From positions 1 to 61,535 of the forward strand of contig NZ_JALHQJ010000006.1 of assembly GCF_022842015.1 (NCBI RefSeq): DNA of 61,535 nt, read 5' to 3'. This document shows positions 10,202 to 56,218 of the stretch, piece by piece. How positions within the stretch are numbered: the first letter of the stretch is position 1; every line of letters begins with the position of its first letter. The DNA is from Nitrosomonas sp. GTDB taxonomy: Bacteria; Pseudomonadota; Gammaproteobacteria; Burkholderiales; Nitrosomonadaceae. The notes beneath the pieces are model-generated. The model had not been told where the DNA came from. It made no database searches and saw only the letters and a program-made list of their open reading frames with translations. Both the position numbers and the translations under genes were made by a program.

Positions 10202-13200
10202 ATGAAATTCACTTCACTTACACAGCGTTTTGCTGTCTGGTTTACATTGGTTTCTTTACTACCAATATTGTTCATTGGCAACAGCTTACTGCATACATTT
10301 GAAGCCGAGATAAAGAAATCAGCTATTCAGAATGTCTCTGCTATCGCTGACAAGAAGGCCGAGCAAATCGACTATTACCTTCAAGAACGTTTGCTTGATG
10401 CTTATTTGGCAAGTGGCACAAGTACAACCCATGAGGCAATTGTTAAATTCTCCACAACTTTTGAACAACATGGAGTCGACTCCGATGAATATCACCAGCT
10501 GGATAAGATATATCGTGAAAGCTACAAACGCTTTTTGGACAATGCCAAATATTACGATCTATTTTTGATTTCAACTCAAGGGACAATCGTTTATTCTCAG
10601 GCACATGAATCTGACTTTGCAACTAATCTTCAGACTGGCCCCTATCGTAACACCGGTTTAGGTAAAGTCGCCCGACATGCGCTGGACAACTTAGAAAGTA
10701 GTATTTCAGACTTTGAATATTACGAACCATCCAAAGGCGCTATAGCCGCGTTCGTTGCGACACCTATTATTATTGAGGGTAAAATTAAAGGAGTGCTAGC
10801 GTTACAAATCTATAGTCAACTTGTGTTTTCAGTAATTTCAAATAACGTGGGTCTTAGAAATAGCGGAGAAACAGTCGTTGCACGACTTGAAGATGATCAA
10901 ACCGCTTTAGTAATGGCTCCAATGAAATATGATCCTGATGCTGCATTAAAACGAAAAATACCTCTTGATAATCCACCATTGTCCACAGCAATCCAATATG
11001 CCCTAGATGGCGATTCTGGTGGCGCATTAACTGTTAATTACCGTGGCAAGGAAGTTGTGGCGGCATGGCGTTATTTGCCGCGCTTGAAGTGGGGTATGGT
11101 GGTAAATATTGACGCTGATGAGGCATTCGCTTCTGTTTATCATGTACATTTTATTGGTGTAGTGATTGTTATCCTAACCTTTCTTGCCGCTTTATTCGGG
11201 GCCTTTTTATTTAATCGCCGTGTTGTCGATCCTTTGAAGCACTTGAACCAGAGTGCACTGGAAATTTCGGCAGGTAACTTACATCAGCGTGCCGCGATTG
11301 AAGGCTGGGATGAAATGAGGCAACTTGCGCAAACATTTAATCTTATGGTGGAACGGCTAAACGCTAGTAACCTCGAGCTTGAAAATAGAGTTGCCGCACG
11401 CACAGACGATTTGCAACGGGCAAATTCTGCTTTAGCGATTAAAGAAGAAGAAATGCGTTCTATTGTTGAACACATGGTTGATTGCGTGGTAACCACCGAT
11501 GAGATAGGCACAATTCTTTCCGTCAATCCAGTAATGGAAAAGCTATTCGGTTATAGCCATGATGAAATGATTGGGCAAAATGTATCGATCATCGTGCCTG
11601 AGCCTGATCGTAGCCGACATATCAGTTATATGGAAAATTATTGCCGCACTGGGCATGGCCAAGAATATGTCGGTCGCCCTTATTTGTCTGGATCGCATGG
11701 CATTGGGCGCGGACGTGAAGTAGAAGGCATTCGAAAGAATGGCGAACGAATTGAATTATATTTGGCGGTCAGTGAATATTTTGTGGGCGAAGAGCGACAC
11801 TTTACCGGTGTGCTGCGGGATATCCGTGAGCATGTGCGCATTATGAATGACTTACGGCAAGCACGGACTGAGGCAGAGCAAGCTAATAAAGCTAAATCGG
11901 CTTTCTTAGCCGCTATGAGCCATGAAATCCGCACACCGATGAATGGTGTAATTGGCATGATTGACGTACTTAGGCAAACCAGTTTGACTGGTTATCAAAT
12001 GGAAATGGCTAACTTGATACGCGATTCTGCTTATTCGCTGCTTTCCATCATTGAAGATATTCTTGATTTTTCTAAAATTGAGGCCGGTAAGCTGGAAATA
12101 GAAAAGATCCCAATGTCATTAGCAAGCATTGTAGAAAACGCTTGCGGTATGTTGGCACACGTCGCTCTCAGCAAGAAAGTAGAACTAACCTTGTTTATTG
12201 ATCCAGAAATTCCAGAAAATATGCTAGGTGATCCCTTGCGACTCCGCCAAGTATTGGTAAATATTATCAATAACGCAATTAAATTTTCCAGTAAGCAGGA
12301 AAAGCAAGGCAAAGTATCGGTGCGAGTATTATTGACTGAATCTAATCCCGATCAAGTAGTGGTAACTTTCCAGATCACCGATAATGGTATCGGTATGAAT
12401 AAAGAGACTCAGGAGAAATTGTTCAAATCCTTCTCTCAAGGTGATCCTTCTACCACACGGCGATTTGGTGGAACCGGACTCGGTTTGGCAATATCGCATC
12501 ATCTGGCAGAATTGATGGATGCAGAAATTACGGTACAAAGCGAACCTCAGCATGGCTCCACTTTTATTATACAAATGCCTTTTAAGCCTTTAACCAAGAT
12601 TTCATATGCCGATCACAAGATTGATGATCTCGAAGGCATGAACTGCTTGATATTAGGTGAAAATGATGGATTAAGTAGTGATCTGGCTGTTTATTTAAAA
12701 AGTGCAGGCGCCATGGTCGAGCAGGTATCCAATCTCACAAACATTGATCATGTTATTCAAAAGCTTGCTCCTGGTTTATGGCTTGTTGTTATAGATGCCG
12801 GAGAGCAAGTGCCTTCAATTGAAACATTACGCGCTGCGTTTAACGCCCGCTCTGAGGTTATAAAAAAAGACGCTGATACAGGCTTGTACCAACCGCAACC
12901 TTATATAGAGCCTCGATTTATTGTGATTAAGCGAGGTCGCCGGCGGCAAGCGCGTATCGAAGATATCGACATTATTACGTTGGATGGCGATGTCATGTAC
13001 CGTCAATCGTTATTTCGCGCGATGGAGATCGCTGCCGGAAGAATAGAAGCAGAAACAGAAGAAGCGCCTCCTCTGAACATCATCACATCAGCGCCTAAGC
13101 CCATTTCACGTGAAGAAGCCTTAAAGCAGCGCATGTTAATTCTGGTAGCAGAAGATAACGATATTAACCAGAAAGTAATTCGCCAGCAACTCAATCTGCT

Positions 13201-13915
13201 GGGATATGCGGCAGACATTGCCAGCGATGGTAGAGAAGCATTGAAACGTTGGCAAAGTGGCGATTATAATTTGTTATTGACTGATTTACATATGCCTGAA
13301 ATGGATGGATTCGAGCTGACAAAAGATATTAGAGCAGTAGAGACTAATCAGAAACATATTCCTATTGTTGCCTTGACAGCGAATGCGCTAAAAGGTGAAA
13401 AGGAACGTTGCCTGCAAGCTGGAATGGATGATTATCTGAGCAAACCGGTTCAGCTTGACGATCTGCGTTCGATACTTGAAAAATATCTACCCAATCAGCA
13501 ATCAATTGAAGCTATCAAATCTGCCTCTCGACCTGATTTATCCAACAGCAAAGCTAAATCCGAGTTAGCCGAAACACCGCTCAATATCCATGTTCTCGAA
13601 GAACTGGTTGGAGATGATCCAGTAATGATTAAGGAAATGTTGCTGGAATTTCGCGTCAGCGCGGAAAAAATTGCGTCGGAGCTCCATGCCGCTTATCAAG
13701 CTGGCCAATTAACAACAGTCGGTTCATTGGCGCACAAACTCAAATCGTCGGCACGTTCTGTCGGTGCACTTGCACTAGGTGAATTATGCGCACAAATGGA
13801 GCAAGCAGGTAAAAACAGCGATGCAGAAACACTAGCTGTATTCCTTACAGCATTTGATGCGCAATTGACAAGTATCAAAACTTATCTGAGTACTTTATAT
13901 GCGAAAGATGAGTGA
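10202..13915 (+). CDS. Hybrid sensor histidine kinase (Cache-HAMP-PAS-HisKA-HATPase-REC-Hpt)
   Basis: A 1237-residue membrane-bound hybrid kinase of BarA-like layout. Order: membrane helix 13-32; a large periplasmic double-Cache sensor (~40-300); second helix ~315-337; HAMP ~338-390; PAS ~410-540; HisKA with the phospho-acceptor His574 in MSHEIRTPMNG; and a HATPase with DNGIGM and FGGTGLGLAIS. A degenerate receiver-like region follows (~815-935), then a proper receiver with phospho-acceptor Asp1028 in LLTDLHMPEMDG and the KP motif. The C-terminal Hpt has His1178 in LAHKLKSSARS. AGGAG just before the ATG supports the start. The signal sensed is unknown. No cognate response regulator lies next to it, so it probably feeds an unlinked regulator. 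Confidence 0.93.
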   Translation: MKFTSLTQRFAVWFTLVSLLPILFIGNSLLHTFEAEIKKSAIQNVSAIADKKAEQIDYYLQERLLDAYLASGTSTTHEAIVKFSTTFEQHGVDSDEYHQLDKIYRESYKRFLDNAKYYDLFLISTQGTIVYSQAHESDFATNLQTGPYRNTGLGKVARHALDNLESSISDFEYYEPSKGAIAAFVATPIIIEGKIKGVLALQIYSQLVFSVISNNVGLRNSGETVVARLEDDQTALVMAPMKYDPDAALKRKIPLDNPPLSTAIQYALDGDSGGALTVNYRGKEVVAAWRYLPRLKWGMVVNIDADEAFASVYHVHFIGVVIVILTFLAALFGAFLFNRRVVDPLKHLNQSALEISAGNLHQRAAIEGWDEMRQLAQTFNLMVERLNASNLELENRVAARTDDLQRANSALAIKEEEMRSIVEHMVDCVVTTDEIGTILSVNPVMEKLFGYSHDEMIGQNVSIIVPEPDRSRHISYMENYCRTGHGQEYVGRPYLSGSHGIGRGREVEGIRKNGERIELYLAVSEYFVGEERHFTGVLRDIREHVRIMNDLRQARTEAEQANKAKSAFLAAMSHEIRTPMNGVIGMIDVLRQTSLTGYQMEMANLIRDSAYSLLSIIEDILDFSKIEAGKLEIEKIPMSLASIVENACGMLAHVALSKKVELTLFIDPEIPENMLGDPLRLRQVLVNIINNAIKFSSKQEKQGKVSVRVLLTESNPDQVVVTFQITDNGIGMNKETQEKLFKSFSQGDPSTTRRFGGTGLGLAISHHLAELMDAEITVQSEPQHGSTFIIQMPFKPLTKISYADHKIDDLEGMNCLILGENDGLSSDLAVYLKSAGAMVEQVSNLTNIDHVIQKLAPGLWLVVIDAGEQVPSIETLRAAFNARSEVIKKDADTGLYQPQPYIEPRFIVIKRGRRRQARIEDIDIITLDGDVMYRQSLFRAMEIAAGRIEAETEEAPPLNIITSAPKPISREEALKQRMLILVAEDNDINQKVIRQQLNLLGYAADIASDGREALKRWQSGDYNLLLTDLHMPEMDGFELTKDIRAVETNQKHIPIVALTANALKGEKERCLQAGMDDYLSKPVQLDDLRSILEKYLPNQQSIEAIKSASRPDLSNSKAKSELAETPLNIHVLEELVGDDPVMIKEMLLEFRVSAEKIASELHAAYQAGQLTTVGSLAHKLKSSARSVGALALGELCAQMEQAGKNSDAETLAVFLTAFDAQLTSIKTYLSTLYAKDE

Positions 13916-14101
13916 GGTCGTCGGCAGCAATTTTTTCGTTGTTAAAGCAAGACGATTAGGCGGATTCTGTATCTGTATAAATCATGCTGCGAATCTGTGT
14001 TTGGAATAGAGAAGCAGACAATGGGATATAGTGGAAATAATTAAACACCATGCATACTTGCCGAGATAAATCTAGAATCAGCAGTAGATTACTACCAAAC
14101 T

Positions 14102-15826
14102 ATGACTTATCTGTTCAATAATCCAGAAAATTTTGCAGACGAGCTGATTAATGGATATGTTGCGGCACACCGCAATCTAATACACCTGGTTGATGGTGGC
14201 GTGATTCGGAAGCATAAGGCTCAACCAGGTCAAGTCGTACTTGTTATTGGCGGCGGTTCTGGACATTATCCGGCGTTTGGTGGGTTTGTTGGCTCGGGAT
14301 TGGCACACGGCGCAGCCATGGGGAACGTCTTTGCAGCGCCATCGGCACAACAGATTTGCAATGTGGCACAGGCTGTGGATGCAGGTGGCGGCATTTTATT
14401 TTGCTACGGCAATTATGCTGGAGATGTACTTAATTTCAATCAAGCGCAGGAACAGCTTTGCGCGATAGGTATTGACGTCCGGACAGTCATCGTAACCGAT
14501 GACATTGCTTCTGCACCTTTGACTGAAAAACATAAACGCCGCGGTATTGCCGGCACTTTCCCGGTTTTCAAGGCTGCTGCTGTTGCCGCAGATTCTGGGA
14601 AATCGCTTGATGATGTTTTTCGCATCGCAACTGATGCCAATGATCGCGTACGAACACTCGGCGTGGCATTTTCTGGTTGCACTCTGCCTGGTGCCAATAA
14701 GCCACTGTTCGAAGTTGCAAATGGAAAGATGGAAGTTGGTATGGGGATTCATGGTGAACCCGGTCTCTATCGTATCGATGCGCCAACTGCCGATGGTCTG
14801 GCAGAAATGTTGGTCGACAAGCTGCTCACTGAAACTCCTTCAACCATCGTCAATGGTGATAGCGCACGTATCGGCGTGATACTTAACGGCCTTGGTTCTG
14901 TGAAATACGAAGAATTATTTGTGGTCTATCGCCGGGTTGATCGCTTGCTATTCGAGCGCGGATTGACCATCATTGATCCCATAGTGGATGAATTAATCAC
15001 AAGCTTTGACATGGCAGGCATCTCACTTACGTTATTCTGGATGAACGATGAGCTTGAGAAAACCTGGATTGCGGCAGCAGACACGCCCACATTCCATAAG
15101 GGTAATATCGTTCGTTCCAATATAGACACGCCCTCAGCCAGTCAAATCAAAGAAAAATCTCCATTAGAAATTGGCTCTATGGACTCACAATCCGCTGCAG
15201 CAATAGTTTTTGTGGCGCTTAAGGCCGCTTGCAAAGTGATTACCAAAAAGAGCGAGGAACTTGGAAGATTGGATGCTATTGCTGGAGATGGCGATCACGG
15301 CTTAGGTATGCAGCGTGGAATCACCGCAGCGGTTGTAGCGGCAAAAGAAGCGCTTGATGCCAAAGCAGGTGCTGGAACACTTCTTACAGTTGCTGGCGAC
15401 GCTTGGTCGGATCGAGCTGGCGGCACATCTGGCGTCCTATGGGGTGTTATCCTCCGCAATCTAGGCAATGCTCTGGGTGATGAGGCCACACCCCAAGCAT
15501 CAACAGTTGCTGTCGGCATTGCTTCGGCACTTCGCGATGTAACCAATCTTGGGAAAGCACAGTTAGGCGACAAGACGCTTGTTGATGTTCTATTTCCATT
15601 CTCATCAGCGCTTGCTGCAGCGGCATCACAAGGGCTTTCGATTGCCGATTCTTGGGCCGTTGCAGCCGATATTGCAAATGGAGCAGCTCAATCCACCAAG
15701 AATCTTCTACCTAAAATTGGCCGCGCGCGTCCTCATGCGGAGCAAAGTCTCGGCACACCCGATCCAGGTGCTATTTCGATGGCTCTGATCATTAGCGCGA
15801 TTGGGAAAACCATTAACTTCTTGTAA
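14102..15826 (+). CDS. dhaK: Dihydroxyacetone kinase, fused DhaK-DhaL
   Basis: A 574-residue ATP-dependent dihydroxyacetone kinase. The N-terminal DhaK domain (to ~340) carries the substrate-binding histidine, His217, in MGIHGEPG. The C-terminal DhaL domain has the nucleotide/magnesium loop AGDGDHG (~394-400) and the SWSDRAGGTSG-like segment. Length fits the fused Citrobacter-type enzymes that use ATP rather than the phosphotransferase system. It phosphorylates dihydroxyacetone, and often glyceraldehyde, to feed triose phosphates into central metabolism. In an autotroph this could salvage dephosphorylated Calvin-cycle trioses, which is inference. No glycerol dehydrogenase or regulator is adjacent, and no strong ribosome binding site precedes the ATG. 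Confidence 0.92.
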   Translation: MTYLFNNPENFADELINGYVAAHRNLIHLVDGGVIRKHKAQPGQVVLVIGGGSGHYPAFGGFVGSGLAHGAAMGNVFAAPSAQQICNVAQAVDAGGGILFCYGNYAGDVLNFNQAQEQLCAIGIDVRTVIVTDDIASAPLTEKHKRRGIAGTFPVFKAAAVAADSGKSLDDVFRIATDANDRVRTLGVAFSGCTLPGANKPLFEVANGKMEVGMGIHGEPGLYRIDAPTADGLAEMLVDKLLTETPSTIVNGDSARIGVILNGLGSVKYEELFVVYRRVDRLLFERGLTIIDPIVDELITSFDMAGISLTLFWMNDELEKTWIAAADTPTFHKGNIVRSNIDTPSASQIKEKSPLEIGSMDSQSAAAIVFVALKAACKVITKKSEELGRLDAIAGDGDHGLGMQRGITAAVVAAKEALDAKAGAGTLLTVAGDAWSDRAGGTSGVLWGVILRNLGNALGDEATPQASTVAVGIASALRDVTNLGKAQLGDKTLVDVLFPFSSALAAAASQGLSIADSWAVAADIANGAAQSTKNLLPKIGRARPHAEQSLGTPDPGAISMALIISAIGKTINFL

Positions 15827-16134
15827 AATGCATACAAGTATCCAATAAAAAACAATAATGCTATTTCCAGGATAACGGTGACTATGGCTGAAGCTGATGT
15901 CGTAATTGGTTTGCTTCCTTCTCGCGAAGAAACTCCATTGATTATTTCGAATGTCAACAGCGCTCAGTTAACACAAGATGAACAACTTATTTATTGGACA
16001 GGCAAGATTTAATTTATCGTCATGAGCGTTTTTTGATCATTCTATTTCAACACTTCCAATCAATTATCGCAATACTCTGGAAAGGGGCATTGTTGAACGC
16101 ATACCAAAAAAGTAGAGAGGAATTCTATTGATCT
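15827..16134. other. Gap between dhaK and ndvB with a doubtful 42-codon ORF
   Basis: The two flanking genes converge here. A plus-strand ORF at 15884-16012 begins MAEADVVIGL and ends at TAA. It is preceded by a GGA-rich stretch but matches no family I can name, and may be a chance ORF or a gene remnant. No clear terminator hairpin was found, although one would be expected between convergent genes. Confidence 0.3.
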
Positions 16135-19100
16135 TTAACTTAAGTGCGCCTCAACGTAGTGATCACGGTGATCGTCTGCAAGTGGAATCATACATTGTGA
16201 TCGCCCTTTGTCATCGGTAACTAAGTTATTGATCGCGATGCCGTCTAATGTAACATGGATCTCATGACCTGGCTTCTCATCGTTGCATTTGACAGTGATG
16301 TGGTAGAAAGTCTCGCGGAAGCGATAGTGGATAATGTACCCGCTCCAATGAGTCGGGATACACGGCGTTATGCGTAGATGGTCTGCTTCCAGCTGTAGAC
16401 CCAGAATCGTTTCCACGGTTAGTCGATACATCCAACCCGCTGCCCCAGTATACCAGGTCCAACCACCTTGACCAATGTGTGGCGCTACACCATAGATATC
16501 CGCACACATGACGTATGGCTCAACCTTATAGCGCTCGACTTCCTCGGGTGTTCGACCGTGATTGATAGGATTGAGCATGGTAAACAATTCCCAGGTACGC
16601 TTCCGGTCACCTAACATGGCAAACGCCATTGCGGACCAAATAGCAGCATGGGTATATTGGCCGCCGTTCTCACGAATGCCTGGTACGTAGCCTTTAATAT
16701 ATCCGGGCTCAAGTTTTGATTTATCGAAGGGTGGATCGAACAATTGGATCAACTGCGTATCGCGCCGTATCAAGTATTTGTCTACCGCAGCCATCGCTTG
16801 GCTTGCGCGTGCAGGATCTCCACCCCCGGAAATGACTGACCAACTCTGGCTGATCGAATCAATTTTACACTCATCATTACTGGACGAACCCAAAGGTGTG
16901 CCGTCATCGAAATAGGCCCGCCGATACCATTTGCCGTCCCAGGCATGGGCTTCGATATGCTCGCACAACCGTGCAGCCTGTTGCTCACAAATATTGGCAA
17001 AAGCTTCGTCTCCCCGGCTCTGTGCCAAGTTGGCAAACATTTGAAGGTTCGCGTACAAAAACCATGCTAGCCAAACGCTCTCGCCCTTGCCGTTACGGCC
17101 GACAAGATTCATGCCATCGTTCCAATCGCCACACCCCATCAACGGCAAATGATGATCGCCAAAGCGCAAACTATGTTTAACGGCACGGACGCAATGTTCA
17201 TAGAGACTTGCCTCTTCCAGGGAGCGTTGCGGCTGGTCGTAGTAAGCTTCCTCTTCCGAATATAACTCGCGCCCTTCCAGGAAGTGAATCGACTCATCAA
17301 GCACGCCGATATCGCCAGTCGCCAGCACATAACGGCAGGTAGCATATGGCAGCCACAGATAGTCATCGGAAAAATGAGTACGCACACCTTGTCCGTTAGG
17401 TGGATGCCACCAGTGTTGCACGTCACCTTGGAGAAATTGCCGTTCGGCGCAGCGGATTATTTGCTCACGAGCTAACCAAGGTGTCGCATGGATTAGTGCC
17501 ATGGTGTCTTGCAATTGGTCACGGAAACCGTAGGCACCACCGGACTGATAATATCCGCTACGACCCCAGAATCGGCAAGATAGTGTTTGATAGATAAGCC
17601 AACCATTGGTTAATACGTTCAAAGCGGGATCTGGTGTTTCCACATACACCGCGCCCAATGTGTGGTTCCAATACCCCCATACCGCTTCCAATGCTTGCCG
17701 GGCGCCTGAGAGTCCACCGTATTGCTGAATAAACTGATGCGCTTCATCGACACTGTGAGCTGCGCCGAATATAAATAAGATTTCGCGATCTTGTCCTCCA
17801 GCCAGTTCGAGATGTGTTTGGATAGCTGCGCACGGATCGAGGCCAGCCCCGATCTTTCCTGACAAGCGCTTGCGCCGCATCGATGCTGGGTTGGATAGTG
17901 AGCCATTGCGACCGATGAACTCGGTACGATTCCCAGTTACTGAACGCTCTTGTTCGCTCACTTTTACAAAGACGACTCGCTTGGCGTATTCGCGACCATA
18001 AGCATTGCGAGCAAACAGCGCTCCACTGTGTGGATCCATCTCAGTCACTATGTGCATCTGATTGGTGTGACGCCATTCACCAAGCACCAATTCCCAGTAG
18101 CCGGTCAATGACAATCGCCTTGTGTGCTTGGAATGGTTGTGCAGCTTGATCAGCACGAATTTCACTGGCGCGTCCATGGCTACGTAGGTATGCAGTTCCG
18201 AAGAGATTCCAGCCTGGTAATGTTCGAACACGCTATACCCAAACCCATGGCGGCACACATATCCGGATTGACCACGGGTTGGCAATGGTGTTGGCGACCA
18301 GAAAATTCCTGTATCTTCATCACGGATGTAGAACATCTCACCACTACTGTCACTCAATGGATCATTATGCCAAGTAGTCAATCGGAATTCATGCGCATTG
18401 TCCACCCAGGTATACGCACTACCACACTCACTAACAACCGTGCCGATATGCGGACTGGCGATTACATTGGCCCACGGCGCAGGCGTATTTTTGCCTGGCT
18501 CTAGAGTAATGACATACTCGCGCCCATCGGGCGTAAATCCTCCCAAGCCGTTGTAGAAAATCCGCTCACGCGTTGCTAATGGACTGACTAGTTCAGAGAC
18601 CGGCAGCAGCAACCGGGGTTCAAGGAGATCAGAACTACGTTCAGACGATGTGCGACGTTCCAATGGCTCGATCAATGTTTCGGCTGTATCGCTAAACACG
18701 ATGCGCGCGACCGTTTGGAGCAAGACCCTCTCATCTTCGGAAAGTTCTTCGACACGCCGTACAAAAACGCCTCCTGGCTTCTCGATTATTTGCGCGTCAG
18801 CCCCTGCATTAATCAATCCTATGATCTGATCATGCAAATCTGCCCTATAGCCTGAGAAATCTTCGTTTACGATTACCAGATCAGCAGACAACCCCTTCAT
18901 TCGCCAATAGGCATGGGCCTGAATCGCTTGTTTTATCAGATCGATACGATTCAGGTTTCCGATTCGTATCAGTATAATTGGCAAATCACCCGAGATGGCA
19001 AAACGCCAAAGTCCGGATTGACCCAGTTGGTTGCGCACAATGACACTAGGAGCAGCGCGACGCAAAGCGTTGCTGAATATGACGGAACTGGCAAGACGAC

Positions 19101-51177: not shown

Positions 51178-52560
<1,383 letters not shown>

Positions 52561-52666
52561 TTAAATTCTTTTGAAGCCAGGATTTTAGCATGCCTGCTTT
52601 GAACAGAAGAAAATATTCAGACAATTCCAGCAAGTTCTCACCGGTAATATCCTGTCAATTCAAGGT

Positions 52667-52697
52667 GCGACAATTTGCCGCAGCGACAATTTGTCGC
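52667..52697. promoter_or_regulatory. Tandem palindromic operator
   Basis: GCGACAATTTGTCGC at 52683-52697 is a perfect palindrome (7-base arms around T). GCGACAATTTGCCGC at 52667-52681 is the same with one change. Their centres are 16 bases apart. The right arm of the second copy supplies the predicted -35 box of the PEP-CTERM gene, which suggests repression or regulated binding by an unknown protein. Confidence 0.6.
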
Positions 52698-52719
52698 ATT
52701 GTAATTTGATCAATATACA
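52691..52719 (+). promoter_or_regulatory. Predicted promoter of the PEP-CTERM gene
   Basis: TTGTCG (52691-52696) and TATACA (52714-52719) are spaced by 17 bases, each with four matches to consensus. Transcription would start near 52726, giving a leader of about 230 bases. The fit is moderate, and the AT-rich stretch after it offers alternatives. Confidence 0.4.
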
Positions 52720-52748
52720 ATAAAATTAATAAGCAATAGATATAGCCA

Positions 52749-52830
52749 CCCTTGTCGCAAGGCAAGTTCGGAAAGCCTACAGATCTCCCCAAATGAGACG
52801 GCTGGGTTGCCTCCTTTGAATGATGGGGAG
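52749..52830 (+). promoter_or_regulatory. GEMM-like (cyclic-di-GMP-I-like) leader RNA, atypical
   Basis: AGGCAA (52760-52765) pairs with TTGCCT (52807-52812) as the closing stem. Inside, AAAGCC leads a second hairpin, AGCC (52774-52777) with GGCT (52800-52803) and TCTC (52784-52787) with GAGA (52795-52798), followed by GGGTTGCC. Order, bulge and conserved strands match the second half of a class I cyclic-di-GMP aptamer. The first hairpin, normally between GGCAA and the GCAAAGCC strand, is reduced to a few bases. CTCCCC (52785-52790) can instead pair with GGGGAG (52825-52830). Family identity is by eye only. Confidence 0.45.
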
Positions 52831-52956
52831 TCACTGAATCGAAAAGCAAGCAATCGACATCAGATCATCATTCGTCAATCAAATGCCAGAAGCCATCGTT
52901 CATTTATTGATCACATAGCCGACGGTGCAATGTAACTTATTATTGGAGACTCAAAA

Positions 52957-53796
52957 ATGCAAAAAAAACATGCAAAAAAACCAAATATCCTGATTTCAGC
53001 AGCGATTATTTCTATTGCTGCACTGGCTACTGCAAATGCGCATGCTGCAGATGCCGTAGGATTTAAACCTTGGACTGGTAACATTAATGAGCTTAGCTCG
53101 GACGGCAGCATTTCTGCCACCGAGACCGGTCTACAAAGTGCTTATTCGGATAATCCTGCCTTAAATAATTCTGCCTGGGCGCATACCGGAGATTGGTATA
53201 CTTTTAAGAATAGCAGTCTGGCAGATGTCACCGTAACAGTTACCGGAGATAGCGGTTTTGCTCCCGGCGTTACGGTGTGGGCCACTGGAAGTACTGAATT
53301 CGATGGTGGAACCACCAGTTTTGGTGGCGAACTCAGTTCGGCGGGATTTGGCACCCCACATTCATTTAATGCAACGGGAGCCATGGGCGATACCGGTACA
53401 TTATGGATGGCTAACGGCAATGGAGGCAATGTACTAGAAACCCTGGGTTATGCAGTTTCCGGCCCTTCGCACACCACTGGAAACGGATGGGGTGAGACCA
53501 TTCTCACGGGGGCAAATGACATAAGTTTAACAAGCACTTTTGAAAACGGCGTCAGTGGCAGCACTGGAGCTAATTTTGCATCTCTTGTGTTCGATGACTT
53601 AGCGCCAGGCTGGTATGCGATGTACATCGGCGGCACTAACAATGCCACTGCCGGCGGGGCATTTGGTTTAACTGTTGACTCGACTGTTAGTCCAGTACCT
53701 GAACCAGAAACTTACGCTATGTTGCTGGCAGGCTTGGGTCTCGTTGCCTGGCGCTTGAAAAGCCGGGAAAAAACGTTAGATAGCGCTGCAGCTTAA
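52957..53796 (+). CDS. PEP-CTERM sorting domain protein
   Basis: A 279-residue exported protein with a signal peptide (to about residue 32, ANAHAAD) and a classic PEP-CTERM tail: VPEPETYAMLLAGLGLVAW with Pro-Glu-Pro at 248-250, one membrane helix and a basic end. Exosortase should cleave there. The middle is Gly/Ser/Thr/Asn-rich beta structure, as in many matrix-exported PEP-CTERM proteins. TTGGAGA precedes the ATG. The long leader carries an operator-promoter and a riboswitch-like RNA. The next gene encodes a di-haem peroxidase, but a strong hairpin separates the two. Confidence 0.9.
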   Translation: MQKKHAKKPNILISAAIISIAALATANAHAADAVGFKPWTGNINELSSDGSISATETGLQSAYSDNPALNNSAWAHTGDWYTFKNSSLADVTVTVTGDSGFAPGVTVWATGSTEFDGGTTSFGGELSSAGFGTPHSFNATGAMGDTGTLWMANGNGGNVLETLGYAVSGPSHTTGNGWGETILTGANDISLTSTFENGVSGSTGANFASLVFDDLAPGWYAMYIGGTNNATAGGAFGLTVDSTVSPVPEPETYAMLLAGLGLVAWRLKSREKTLDSAAA

Positions 53797-53815
53797 ATAC
53801 TAGTAAAACCATAAC

Positions 53816-53850
53816 AGAACCGAAGCGTTTACCAAAATCTCTTCGGTTCT
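53816..53850 (+). terminator. Hairpin after the PEP-CTERM gene
   Basis: AGAACCGAAG (53816-53825) pairs perfectly with CTTCGGTTCT (53841-53850) around a 15-base loop, 20 bases after the stop. Only a short T-containing stretch follows, but the stem strength makes a terminator likely. Confidence 0.6.
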
Positions 53851-54016
53851 TATCAGGAAGAATACTTTATCTGAATACACAAGAATTCACACAAGATTGA
53901 TGTGAATTGCACGTAATAAATAATTATCAAAACTACTATCAGCACGTACTCAATAAAACACGCACAAGCACCCTGAAGTTCCTTGACGTACATGCCTGAC
54001 ATTAAGGAATATGATC

Positions 54017-56218
54017 ATGCTAAATATTATAAAAAAATTCATAAGCACACTAATCAAGATAGGCTGTCTCACTTTTTTTACAGGCTCACCCTTACAGGCT
54101 GACGGTTTCGGGCCTATTCCCATGACATTAAAAGGTGCACCGGTTCCGGATGTACCCGGTTTGGTCGGTGGCCCCGACCCTATCATCATTAACAAAAACA
54201 AAGCGATCCTGCTAGGCAAGGCCTTGTTCTGGGATATCAATGTCGGAAGCGATGGCGTGGCATGCGCCAGCTGTCATTTCCATGCAGGTGTGGATCGACG
54301 CACTAAAAACCAAATTTCACCGATAGGCAGAAATAGTGATTTGCCTAAGGAATTTGAACTTGCAAGCGACGGAACGCTACGTGGACCCAATGCAATTCTA
54401 AAAAGAAGTGATTTTCCTTTCTTTCAAACCGACAATCCGCTTAATCCCACTGGCATGCCTATTTATAACAGTGATGATGTGGCTTCTTCCTCGGGAAGCT
54501 TTGGCGGCGAATACCGCGATGCCAAATCGATTGCTGCGACAAACGATCAGTGTAATCGCAGCTCCGATCCGGTTTTTCATGTCGGCGCAAAAGGTACGCG
54601 CAAAGTTGAGCCACGAAATACGCCCACTGTCTTTAACGCCGTCTTTAATTTTCGTAATTTCTGGGACGGCCGCGCCAACAATATTTTTAACGGCAGTAGC
54701 CTTTGGGGAGATCGTGACCCCGATGCCGGCGTCTGGGTTAGAAATGGTGATGGTACTGTTGCCAAAGAGCGTTTGAGACTCATCAACTCTGCTCTGGCTT
54801 CTCAAGCTGTCGCCACGGCCTTGGATGACACCGAAATGAGTTGCCATGGACGCACTTTTTCTGACTTGGGTCGTAAGCTATTAGAGCGCAAACCACTTGA
54901 ACATCAACGTGTGCACTGGAACGATAGTGTACTAGGTGGATTGGCACACAGCACACCCAATAATTTGCAGAAAGGGCTAAATACAAACTACTACCAATTG
55001 ATTATGGAAGCATTCAATCCAAAATACTGGGATTATAACCATACTGGCCAATTTGGCGCTCCGCCGCCTAGCTCCGCAACGCACGGCATACCTTATCGCC
55101 AGGTAGAAGCTAATTTTTCTATGTTCTTTGCGCTTGCACTTCAACTGTACCAATCGACACTGATTTCCGACGATTCCCCATTTGACCGCAGCACTGTGGA
55201 TGAACATGGCGTGCCGATTGGATTAAGCGCATCAGCACAACGTGGAATGGACATTTTCCGCGATTCGCACTGCGCGCTTTGTCATATTGGCCCTAACTTT
55301 ACTTCATCAGCTGTGGTAACCAATGGTATTTTGCAAAAATTAAACCCGCATGCTTTCGGCAACTCTGCATTCCGCGTCAGCACGACAACTGTGTTGACCA
55401 GCCTATCTTTAACCGGTGGGATGATGTTTCAAGATACTGGCTTCTCCGGTACCGGGGTGACACCGGTAGAAAATGATATTGGTCTGGGTGGCACCGATCC
55501 CTTCGGCAACCCGCTTTCGTTTTCTGATCAGTATTTACAGCTTCTGGCGGGTAATGCATCTAAGGTTGTAGATCCTTATGTTGCAAACGTGAGGCCCTGT
55601 GATCTGGATACGCAGATTGCAATCGACAGTGACAACCCGCATGCGTTATTTTTCACGCGCGCGGACGGAATACAAAACCAGAAACAAAATACCGTCAATT
55701 GTTTCAATCCGGCAGGCATATTGATTCCAACAGCTAACGCAGCGTTAGCAGAATTGAAGAAACCCAATAGAAGAAAGTTTTTAAGTGCAGCCAAAGGCTC
55801 ATACAAAATCCCCAGTTTAAGAAATATCGAACTGACCGGCCCCTACATGCACAACGGCGGCATGGCAACATTGGATGAAGTATTGGAGTTTTATACACGA
55901 GGTGGTAATTTTGCAACGCCACCAAAAGAATTTGGCAAAATTTTCGCGCTGGTTGACTTACGACTCGCACCGCAAAAACGTAAAGACTTGCTTAATTTTC
56001 TAAAAAGTTTGACGGATGATCGCGTGCGCTATGAAAGAGCGCCCTTTGATCACCCCGAAATACGGATAACGCACGGTCACGTTGGAGACAATTCGTCAAT
56101 CACCAAGTCCAGCCCAATGAATGCGGCGCTTGCAGCCGATCAGTTTCTGTTTATTCCGGCTGTCGGCGCTGAGGGAAGAGCAAAACCGCTGCAACCATTT
56201 GACCGTTTTTTGCAATAA
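54017..56218 (+). CDS. Long di-haem cytochrome c peroxidase family protein
   Basis: A protein of 733 residues from the ATG at 54017, where AAGGA is eight bases upstream. The ATG at 54011 is too close to it. A signal peptide ends near LQADG. Two haem-binding CxxCH motifs are at Cys83-His87 (CASCH) and Cys419-His423 (CALCH), and KIPSLRNIELTGPYMHNGG is the usual C-terminal CcpA/MauG signature. It should be periplasmic, reducing hydrogen peroxide or modifying a protein. At about twice the length of a standard bacterial peroxidase (around 340), it has a large insertion between the haem sites. The substrate is unknown. Confidence 0.88.
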   Translation: MLNIIKKFISTLIKIGCLTFFTGSPLQADGFGPIPMTLKGAPVPDVPGLVGGPDPIIINKNKAILLGKALFWDINVGSDGVACASCHFHAGVDRRTKNQISPIGRNSDLPKEFELASDGTLRGPNAILKRSDFPFFQTDNPLNPTGMPIYNSDDVASSSGSFGGEYRDAKSIAATNDQCNRSSDPVFHVGAKGTRKVEPRNTPTVFNAVFNFRNFWDGRANNIFNGSSLWGDRDPDAGVWVRNGDGTVAKERLRLINSALASQAVATALDDTEMSCHGRTFSDLGRKLLERKPLEHQRVHWNDSVLGGLAHSTPNNLQKGLNTNYYQLIMEAFNPKYWDYNHTGQFGAPPPSSATHGIPYRQVEANFSMFFALALQLYQSTLISDDSPFDRSTVDEHGVPIGLSASAQRGMDIFRDSHCALCHIGPNFTSSAVVTNGILQKLNPHAFGNSAFRVSTTTVLTSLSLTGGMMFQDTGFSGTGVTPVENDIGLGGTDPFGNPLSFSDQYLQLLAGNASKVVDPYVANVRPCDLDTQIAIDSDNPHALFFTRADGIQNQKQNTVNCFNPAGILIPTANAALAELKKPNRRKFLSAAKGSYKIPSLRNIELTGPYMHNGGMATLDEVLEFYTRGGNFATPPKEFGKIFALVDLRLAPQKRKDLLNFLKSLTDDRVRYERAPFDHPEIRITHGHVGDNSSITKSSPMNAALAADQFLFIPAVGAEGRAKPLQPFDRFLQ

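Follow-up and report, generated by a model that had tools for sequence, protein, structure and literature searches.

The closest described relatives of the RNA considered here are class I c-di-GMP riboswitches (c-di-GMP-I or GEMM-I, Rfam RF01051) of the Vc2 type. The names and numbering of the ligand bases G20, A47 and C92 are assumed here to be those of the Vc2 structures, and the closing helix P1 of Vc2 is taken to start at the nucleotide after C92. According to PMC9262584, Vc2 needs P1 for ligand binding, whereas Cd1 of C. difficile has no P1 and yet binds c-di-GMP, a disagreement that the authors themselves call a contradiction; given the Cd1 precedent, loss of P1 is not new by itself. Position 20 is termed a selectivity factor in the same paper, and work on 3',3'-cGAMP binding has examined the change G20A (PMC6274999). 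c-di-GMP riboswitches also precede PEP-CTERM genes in Methylophaga nitratireducenticrescens (PMC12530212), which is the kind of target gene seen at the present locus.

The window, a 61,535-nucleotide stretch of Nitrosomonas sp. DNA, carries a leader that looks like a known riboswitch class in an apparently new architectural variant, as judged from its sequence; the leader, its elements and the genes behind it all lie on the + strand. When the whole window was scanned against 4227 Rfam families, RF01051 at 52735-52814 was the sole match over cut-off (38.4 bits against a gathering score of 35, E = 5.7e-4), a result beyond chance that bears out the kinship to class I c-di-GMP riboswitches proposed in the earlier note. 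In a permissive scan of 52500-53100, the variant family c-di-GMP-I-GGC (RF03167) ranked top with 46.7 bits, above RF01051. Membership in that variant was rejected, as 46.7 bits lies below its cut-off of 59 and its consensus has G at the position of A47, where the window (A52772) and all 42 relatives have A. The c-di-GMP-II models gave no match up to E 10 in the same interval.

Like Vc2-type riboswitches, the leader has two hairpins, a GNRA loop, G20/A47/C92 and a site before a surface-protein gene. The first hairpin, P2 (52746-52771), consists of CC/GG (52746-52747 with 52770-52771) and CTTGTC/GGCAAG (52751-52756 with 52761-52766) around a GCAA loop (52757-52760), and the second, P3 (52774-52808), pairs 52774-52787 with 52795-52808. 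Covariation was analysed in an alignment, A1, of 31 distinct leaders, from which L084 (near-identical to L083) was left out, as was the copy in L093 already present in L087. In P2, 97.3-98.4% of cells are paired and four of the six inner pairs have two-sided changes with pairing kept; P3 is 97.3% paired, with two-sided changes in 5 of 12 pairs. The two side-by-side hairpins and the conserved junction of c-di-GMP-I are thus present, and alignments to the Rfam models also show both hairpins. We regard it as practically certain that the leader contains a c-di-GMP-I aptamer.

The putative ligand-contacting bases (52745-52810) map to G52745 (G20), A52772 (A47) and C52810 (C92), and those of the window copy are, by their identity, of the c-di-GMP type. 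Of 42 distinct leaders, 30 have G and 12 have A at position 20, all have A at position 47, and at position 92 one has U and the other 41 have C; the pair 21-46, G-C in the Vc2 type, is C-G in 41. A20 is the base linked to c-AMP-GMP (3',3'-cGAMP) recognition in GEMM-Ib riboswitches, from which the window copy differs by its G20. A G20 copy and an A20 copy lie on one contig in each of three genomes (G048, G057 and G074). In a leader of G074 (L078), U replaces C at ligand position 92, and the neighbouring copy has A20 and C92.

The earlier note had read the locus as a leader with its first hairpin nearly absent, and its motifs all stand where it placed them: AGGCAA (52760-52765), TTGCCT (52807-52812), AAAGCC (52772-52777), TCTC/GAGA (52784-52787/52795-52798), GGGTTGCC (52804-52811), CTCCCC (52785-52790) and GGGGAG (52825-52830). 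Its structural reading has to be revised. The start it gave, 52749, lies inside the 5' arm of P2, a hairpin that is present and covaries. The AGGCAA that it took for one strand of a closing stem belongs to the 3' arm of P2, and AGGCAA/TTGCCT, 88.2% paired across the 31 leaders, shows no two-sided change and does not exceed shuffles. The AGCC of P3, which it paired with GGCT, pairs in the conserved structure with GGTT (52805-52808). Covariation among homologous leaders thus favours the two aptamer hairpins and neither AGGCAA/TTGCCT nor the CTCCCC/GGGGAG pairing discussed below. With both hairpins present the aptamer is not minimal, and with G20, A47 and C92 the window copy gives no indication of a new ligand. 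The departure from the textbook architecture that the note had sensed is real, and the part that is reduced is P1.

In the 31 leaders, the four base pairs named for P1 are 37.9% paired; one of them survives in 23 leaders and another in 17. The pairing score of the flanks at the place of P1 is 5.06 for the leaders, 6.58 for 33 further c-di-GMP-I copies within the family and 9.44 for 25 copies from other families, a comparison made with 58 of 61 comparators (without L154, L156 and L181) that are best-scoring loci and not a random sample. Re-dealt flanks reach these scores in 81, 5 and 0 of 200 trials, respectively. As the leader flanks are alike, re-dealing is a weak control for the leaders, and letter shuffling of the 5' flanks was therefore added; shuffled flanks reach the scores in 18, 1 and 0 of 300 trials, and the leaders' score is slightly high against them (5.06 versus 4.40). 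A full canonical P1 is rejected on the low percentage paired and the low flank score, and a P1 of two pairs may remain given the slight excess over letter shuffling and the two pairs kept. In window-type leaders, P1 thus seems, from base pairing in the alignment, to keep no more than two base pairs, in which they differ from the Vc2 type and resemble Cd1, a c-di-GMP-I aptamer described as without P1 (PMC9262584). A P1 score of at least 8 was found in five of nine C21-G46 aptamers outside the genus (found by pattern) versus 2 of the 31 leaders. P1 does not appear in the RF01051 consensus structure shown in the alignment.

At the place of P1, starting at the nucleotide directly after C92, where P1 would start, lies a different helix, S1 (52811-52830), in which CTCCT (52811-52815) pairs with GGGAG (52826-52830). 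A second stem, S2 (52818-52873), is interlocked with it and joins GAATGATG (52818-52825) to CATCATTC (52866-52873); in the RNA, GAAUGAUG, between the strands of S1, pairs with CAUCAUUC downstream. Within S2 lies an inner helix (52834-52863) of CTGA (52834-52837) and TCAG (52860-52863). In the 31 leaders, S2 is 96.3% paired with three pairs showing two-sided change, and the inner helix is 91.0% paired (five pairs counted), one pair having seven two-sided changes. None of 500 shuffles reaches S2 and the inner helix together in the percentage paired, in the covariation score or in the number of cells changed on both sides; in pairs with two-sided change (94/500) and pair types (441/500) they are not above shuffles. 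All named helices are 96.4% paired, versus 30-50% when partners are slid by one to three columns, with 14 two-sided pairs. In A2, an alignment of 42 distinct leaders that was fitted to P2, P3, S2 and the inner helix and not to S1, they are 95.5% paired, with 21 pairs showing two-sided change.

S1 (CUCCY/GGGAG) is the most constant helix of this downstream module. It is 98.1% paired in the 31 leaders (43-77% with slid partners) and 94.9% paired in the 42 leaders of A2. Being nearly invariant, with one pair showing two-sided change, it does not rise above shuffles by covariation when taken alone (49 shuffles in 500 score as high), and its covariation score is 0.114 versus 0.118 with partners slid by -1, so that conservation supports S1 and covariation does not prove it. 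S1 was lost in L202 and its duplicate in L080, and L202 has no long ORF after the leader. If both stems form, S1 and S2 would interlock as an H-type pseudoknot; that they do so at the same time is our inference. We consider this S1/S2 architecture fairly probable. The simple switch proposed in the earlier note, in which CTCCCC of the second hairpin pairs with GGGGAG, survives in one of its strands: GGGGAG is a conserved partner strand. Its pairing with CTCCCC holds in 84.7% of cells and shows a single two-sided change; it is broken at one pair in 13 of 31 leaders and is not above shuffles. The conserved partner is CUCCY right after the aptamer, and not the CTCCCC of P3. In some clades a third hairpin stands before the start codon (alifold groups g1-g3); it is absent from g4 and weak in the window, and we do not count it among the elements of the leader.

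The explanation that we favour, at a little better than an even chance, is a class I c-di-GMP riboswitch in which the pseudoknot stem S1 replaces P1. The aptamer with both hairpins would bind c-di-GMP; CUCCY, directly 3' of the ligand-binding C, would pair with GGGAG to form S1, which together with S2 would make up an H-type pseudoknot; and S1, standing in for P1, would stack beneath the ligand and be stabilised by c-di-GMP. We infer both ligand binding and the stabilisation of S1. Alternatively, the leader might be a c-di-GMP-I riboswitch of the ordinary kind that, as in Cd1, does without P1; S1 and S2 would then form a conserved expression platform and play no part in completing the aptamer. 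Cd1 binds its ligand without P1, according to PMC9262584, and S1 is not proven by covariation, both of which suit this account; that S1 starts exactly at the nucleotide of P1 and is the most constant downstream helix speaks against it, and we hold it to be somewhat unlikely.

A reading that we rate as distinctly unlikely makes S1 and S2 alternatives, the ligand choosing between the S1 hairpin and a long S2 hairpin, and the target being an RNA-binding protein, Rho or an RNase rather than the Shine-Dalgarno sequence. It is consistent with RNAalifold, which cannot show pseudoknots, choosing P2, P3 and S1 without S2, with single-sequence folds that allow either stem, and with the near-invariance of the strand GGGGAGU, as expected of a protein site; against it, the strands of S1 and S2 do not overlap, so that the sequence forces no choice between them. 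Decay or loss of function, which the earlier note had also considered, is extremely improbable. The 38.4 bits of the window copy versus the 80-83 bits of the three other copies in its genome would fit decay, but the low score accompanies a conserved subtype (21-46 as C-G in 41 of 42) that is found in 28 genomes and covaries in the 31 leaders.

As to how the leader of the favoured explanation might switch, Cd1 acts via a terminator, whereas no terminator-like site was found between the aptamer and the gene of the window in a scan of 52560-52990, and S1 and S2 are conserved instead. An intrinsic terminator after the aptamer was rejected, the only terminator-like match lying upstream at 52683-52697 (one match versus a shuffled mean of 0.5). 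A Shine-Dalgarno sequence, GGAG, can be read at 52945-52948 and is a possible alternative partner of CTCC at 52811-52814. Without ligand, freed CUCC would pair with this GGAG and mask it; with ligand, S1 would keep CUCC off the Shine-Dalgarno sequence and turn translation of the surface protein ON. With P2, P3, S2 and the inner helix enforced but not S1, the Shine-Dalgarno sequence of the window leader is 0.06 unpaired and 0.91 paired to the CUCC of the S1 strand, versus 0.61 unpaired with S1 enforced. In the unconstrained fold it is 0.32 unpaired, P3 is missing and the Shine-Dalgarno region pairs with the 5' strand of P3; the energy of this fold (-51.7) is lower than that with P2, P3 and S1 (-45.6). 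Across 27 of the 31 leaders (no start was found for L070 and the second copies in L073, L086 and L087), S1 frees the Shine-Dalgarno sequence in nine, does the reverse in three and changes little in 15, for which reason we keep the ON switch as a tentative suggestion, on balance doubtful.

Upstream of the leader, 52667-52698 holds two direct copies of the near-palindrome GCGACAATTTGYCGCA, and stretches like GACAATTTGTC lie upstream of many related leaders; these repeats are possibly a regulator site. A sigma-54 promoter in the repeats was considered by eye and dropped, and a sigma-70-like match at 52699-52726 is no more than chance (one found versus a shuffled mean of 1.2). An upstream ORF, ATGATGGGGAGTCACTGA, was also dropped by eye, L066, L067 and L071 being short of one base.

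At the DNA level, 28 of the family's 125 genomes contain a match to the leader, and every one of these belongs to a single genus, Nitrosomonas. A leader model, R1, was built from A1, so that members of A1 match it by construction; it matches 56 of the 125 genomes at E 0.01 or better and reaches at least 100 bits at 35 places in 28 of them, all Nitrosomonas, with one match in the source genome. R1 also matches 25 of 369 genomes sampled from the class, the best match outside the genus having 64.6 bits. From a set of 28 such loci, L135, L136, L143 and L151 were left out; of the remaining ones, 21 lie outside the genus, and S1 with S2 was seen by eye in none of these. A genome-collection scan with a pattern for the post-aptamer module gave 18 stretches, 15 labelled Nitrosomonas, two labelled Proteobacteria and one from Dehalococcoidia, the last of which (L184) was discounted as it has no Rfam match; the viral collection gave no match to this pattern.

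Six further Nitrosomonas leaders (L204-L209), all matching RF01051 over cut-off, precede other secreted proteins, of two families. By eye, L208 and L209 keep CUCCC/GGGAG with the strands spaced differently, and the CUCC and GGAG of L207 stand more widely apart; UCCCU/AGGGA is seen in L204, and CCC/GGG plus a partial P1 (score 9) in L205. L206 has a P1, GTTAG/CTAAC, without S1 and S2, which speaks for the favoured explanation, and precedes a protein resembling those of L204 and L205. The source genome has four c-di-GMP-I matches over cut-off, the window copy and three on contig 47, as well as 26 GGDEF and 18 PEP-CTERM matches. The three contig 47 aptamers lie inside 1.9 kb (14343-14429, 14586-14672 and 16129-16216, within the stretch 12000-18500) and adjoin two paralogous secreted proteins; as seen by eye, a different pseudoknot-like pair of repeats, such as CAACTC/GTTGAG with TTACTC/GAGTAA, comes after each of them.

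The target gene (52957-53796) encodes an FxDxF-family PEP-CTERM protein of 279 aa (NF038126, 55 bits, cut-off 50; PF07589 over cut-off), so the earlier note was right to place the leader before a PEP-CTERM gene. The protein also matches the CorA-like copper-binding family PF18252 at 21 bits, below the cut-off of 27, and 16 of 21 target homologues share this match at E 0.01. Homologues at E 1e-58 or better occur in 28 of the 125 genomes, 27 of them Nitrosomonas and all 27 with the leader; the remaining one, in another genus (G112), has no leader match. Leader and PEP-CTERM gene are found together in 27 genomes, the leader only in one and the gene only in one. The genome with the leader only, G091 (L070/L211, contig C1), has a conserved leader that the PEP-CTERM gene does not follow, and only a partial gene match elsewhere.

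The next gene (54011-56218) encodes a MauG/MbnH-like di-haem enzyme of 735 aa (PF03150, 62.7 bits, cut-off 25.6; TIGR04039, 104 bits, below the cut-off of 363). Such a gene lies beside the target homologue in 24 of 28 loci (L006-L033), the stretches of the other four being maybe too short, and 52957-56218 is thus a conserved pair of a CorA-like PEP-CTERM protein and a MauG/MbnH-like di-haem enzyme. Pairs of CorA/MopE-type proteins with MauG-like partners are known, and the present pair resembles these.

No paper on a Nitrosomonas c-di-GMP riboswitch and no description of a GEMM architecture with a downstream pseudoknot was found among titles and abstract starts, in a search that most subscription journals lie outside. 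A broader scenario, which we think unlikely, is that a Nitrosomonas lineage of GEMM-I swapped P1 for a ligand-stabilised downstream pseudoknot helix, making the closing helix the expression platform; given the neighbouring G20 and A20 copies in G048, G057 and G074, copies of one surface-protein gene family would then answer c-di-GMP and 3',3'-cGAMP. A natural family with another helix at the place of P1, together with a relative that keeps P1, would allow the role of the closing helix to be tested. If the favoured explanation is true, c-di-GMP would control a conserved pair of proteins, one CorA-like and one MauG-like, in ammonia oxidisers.
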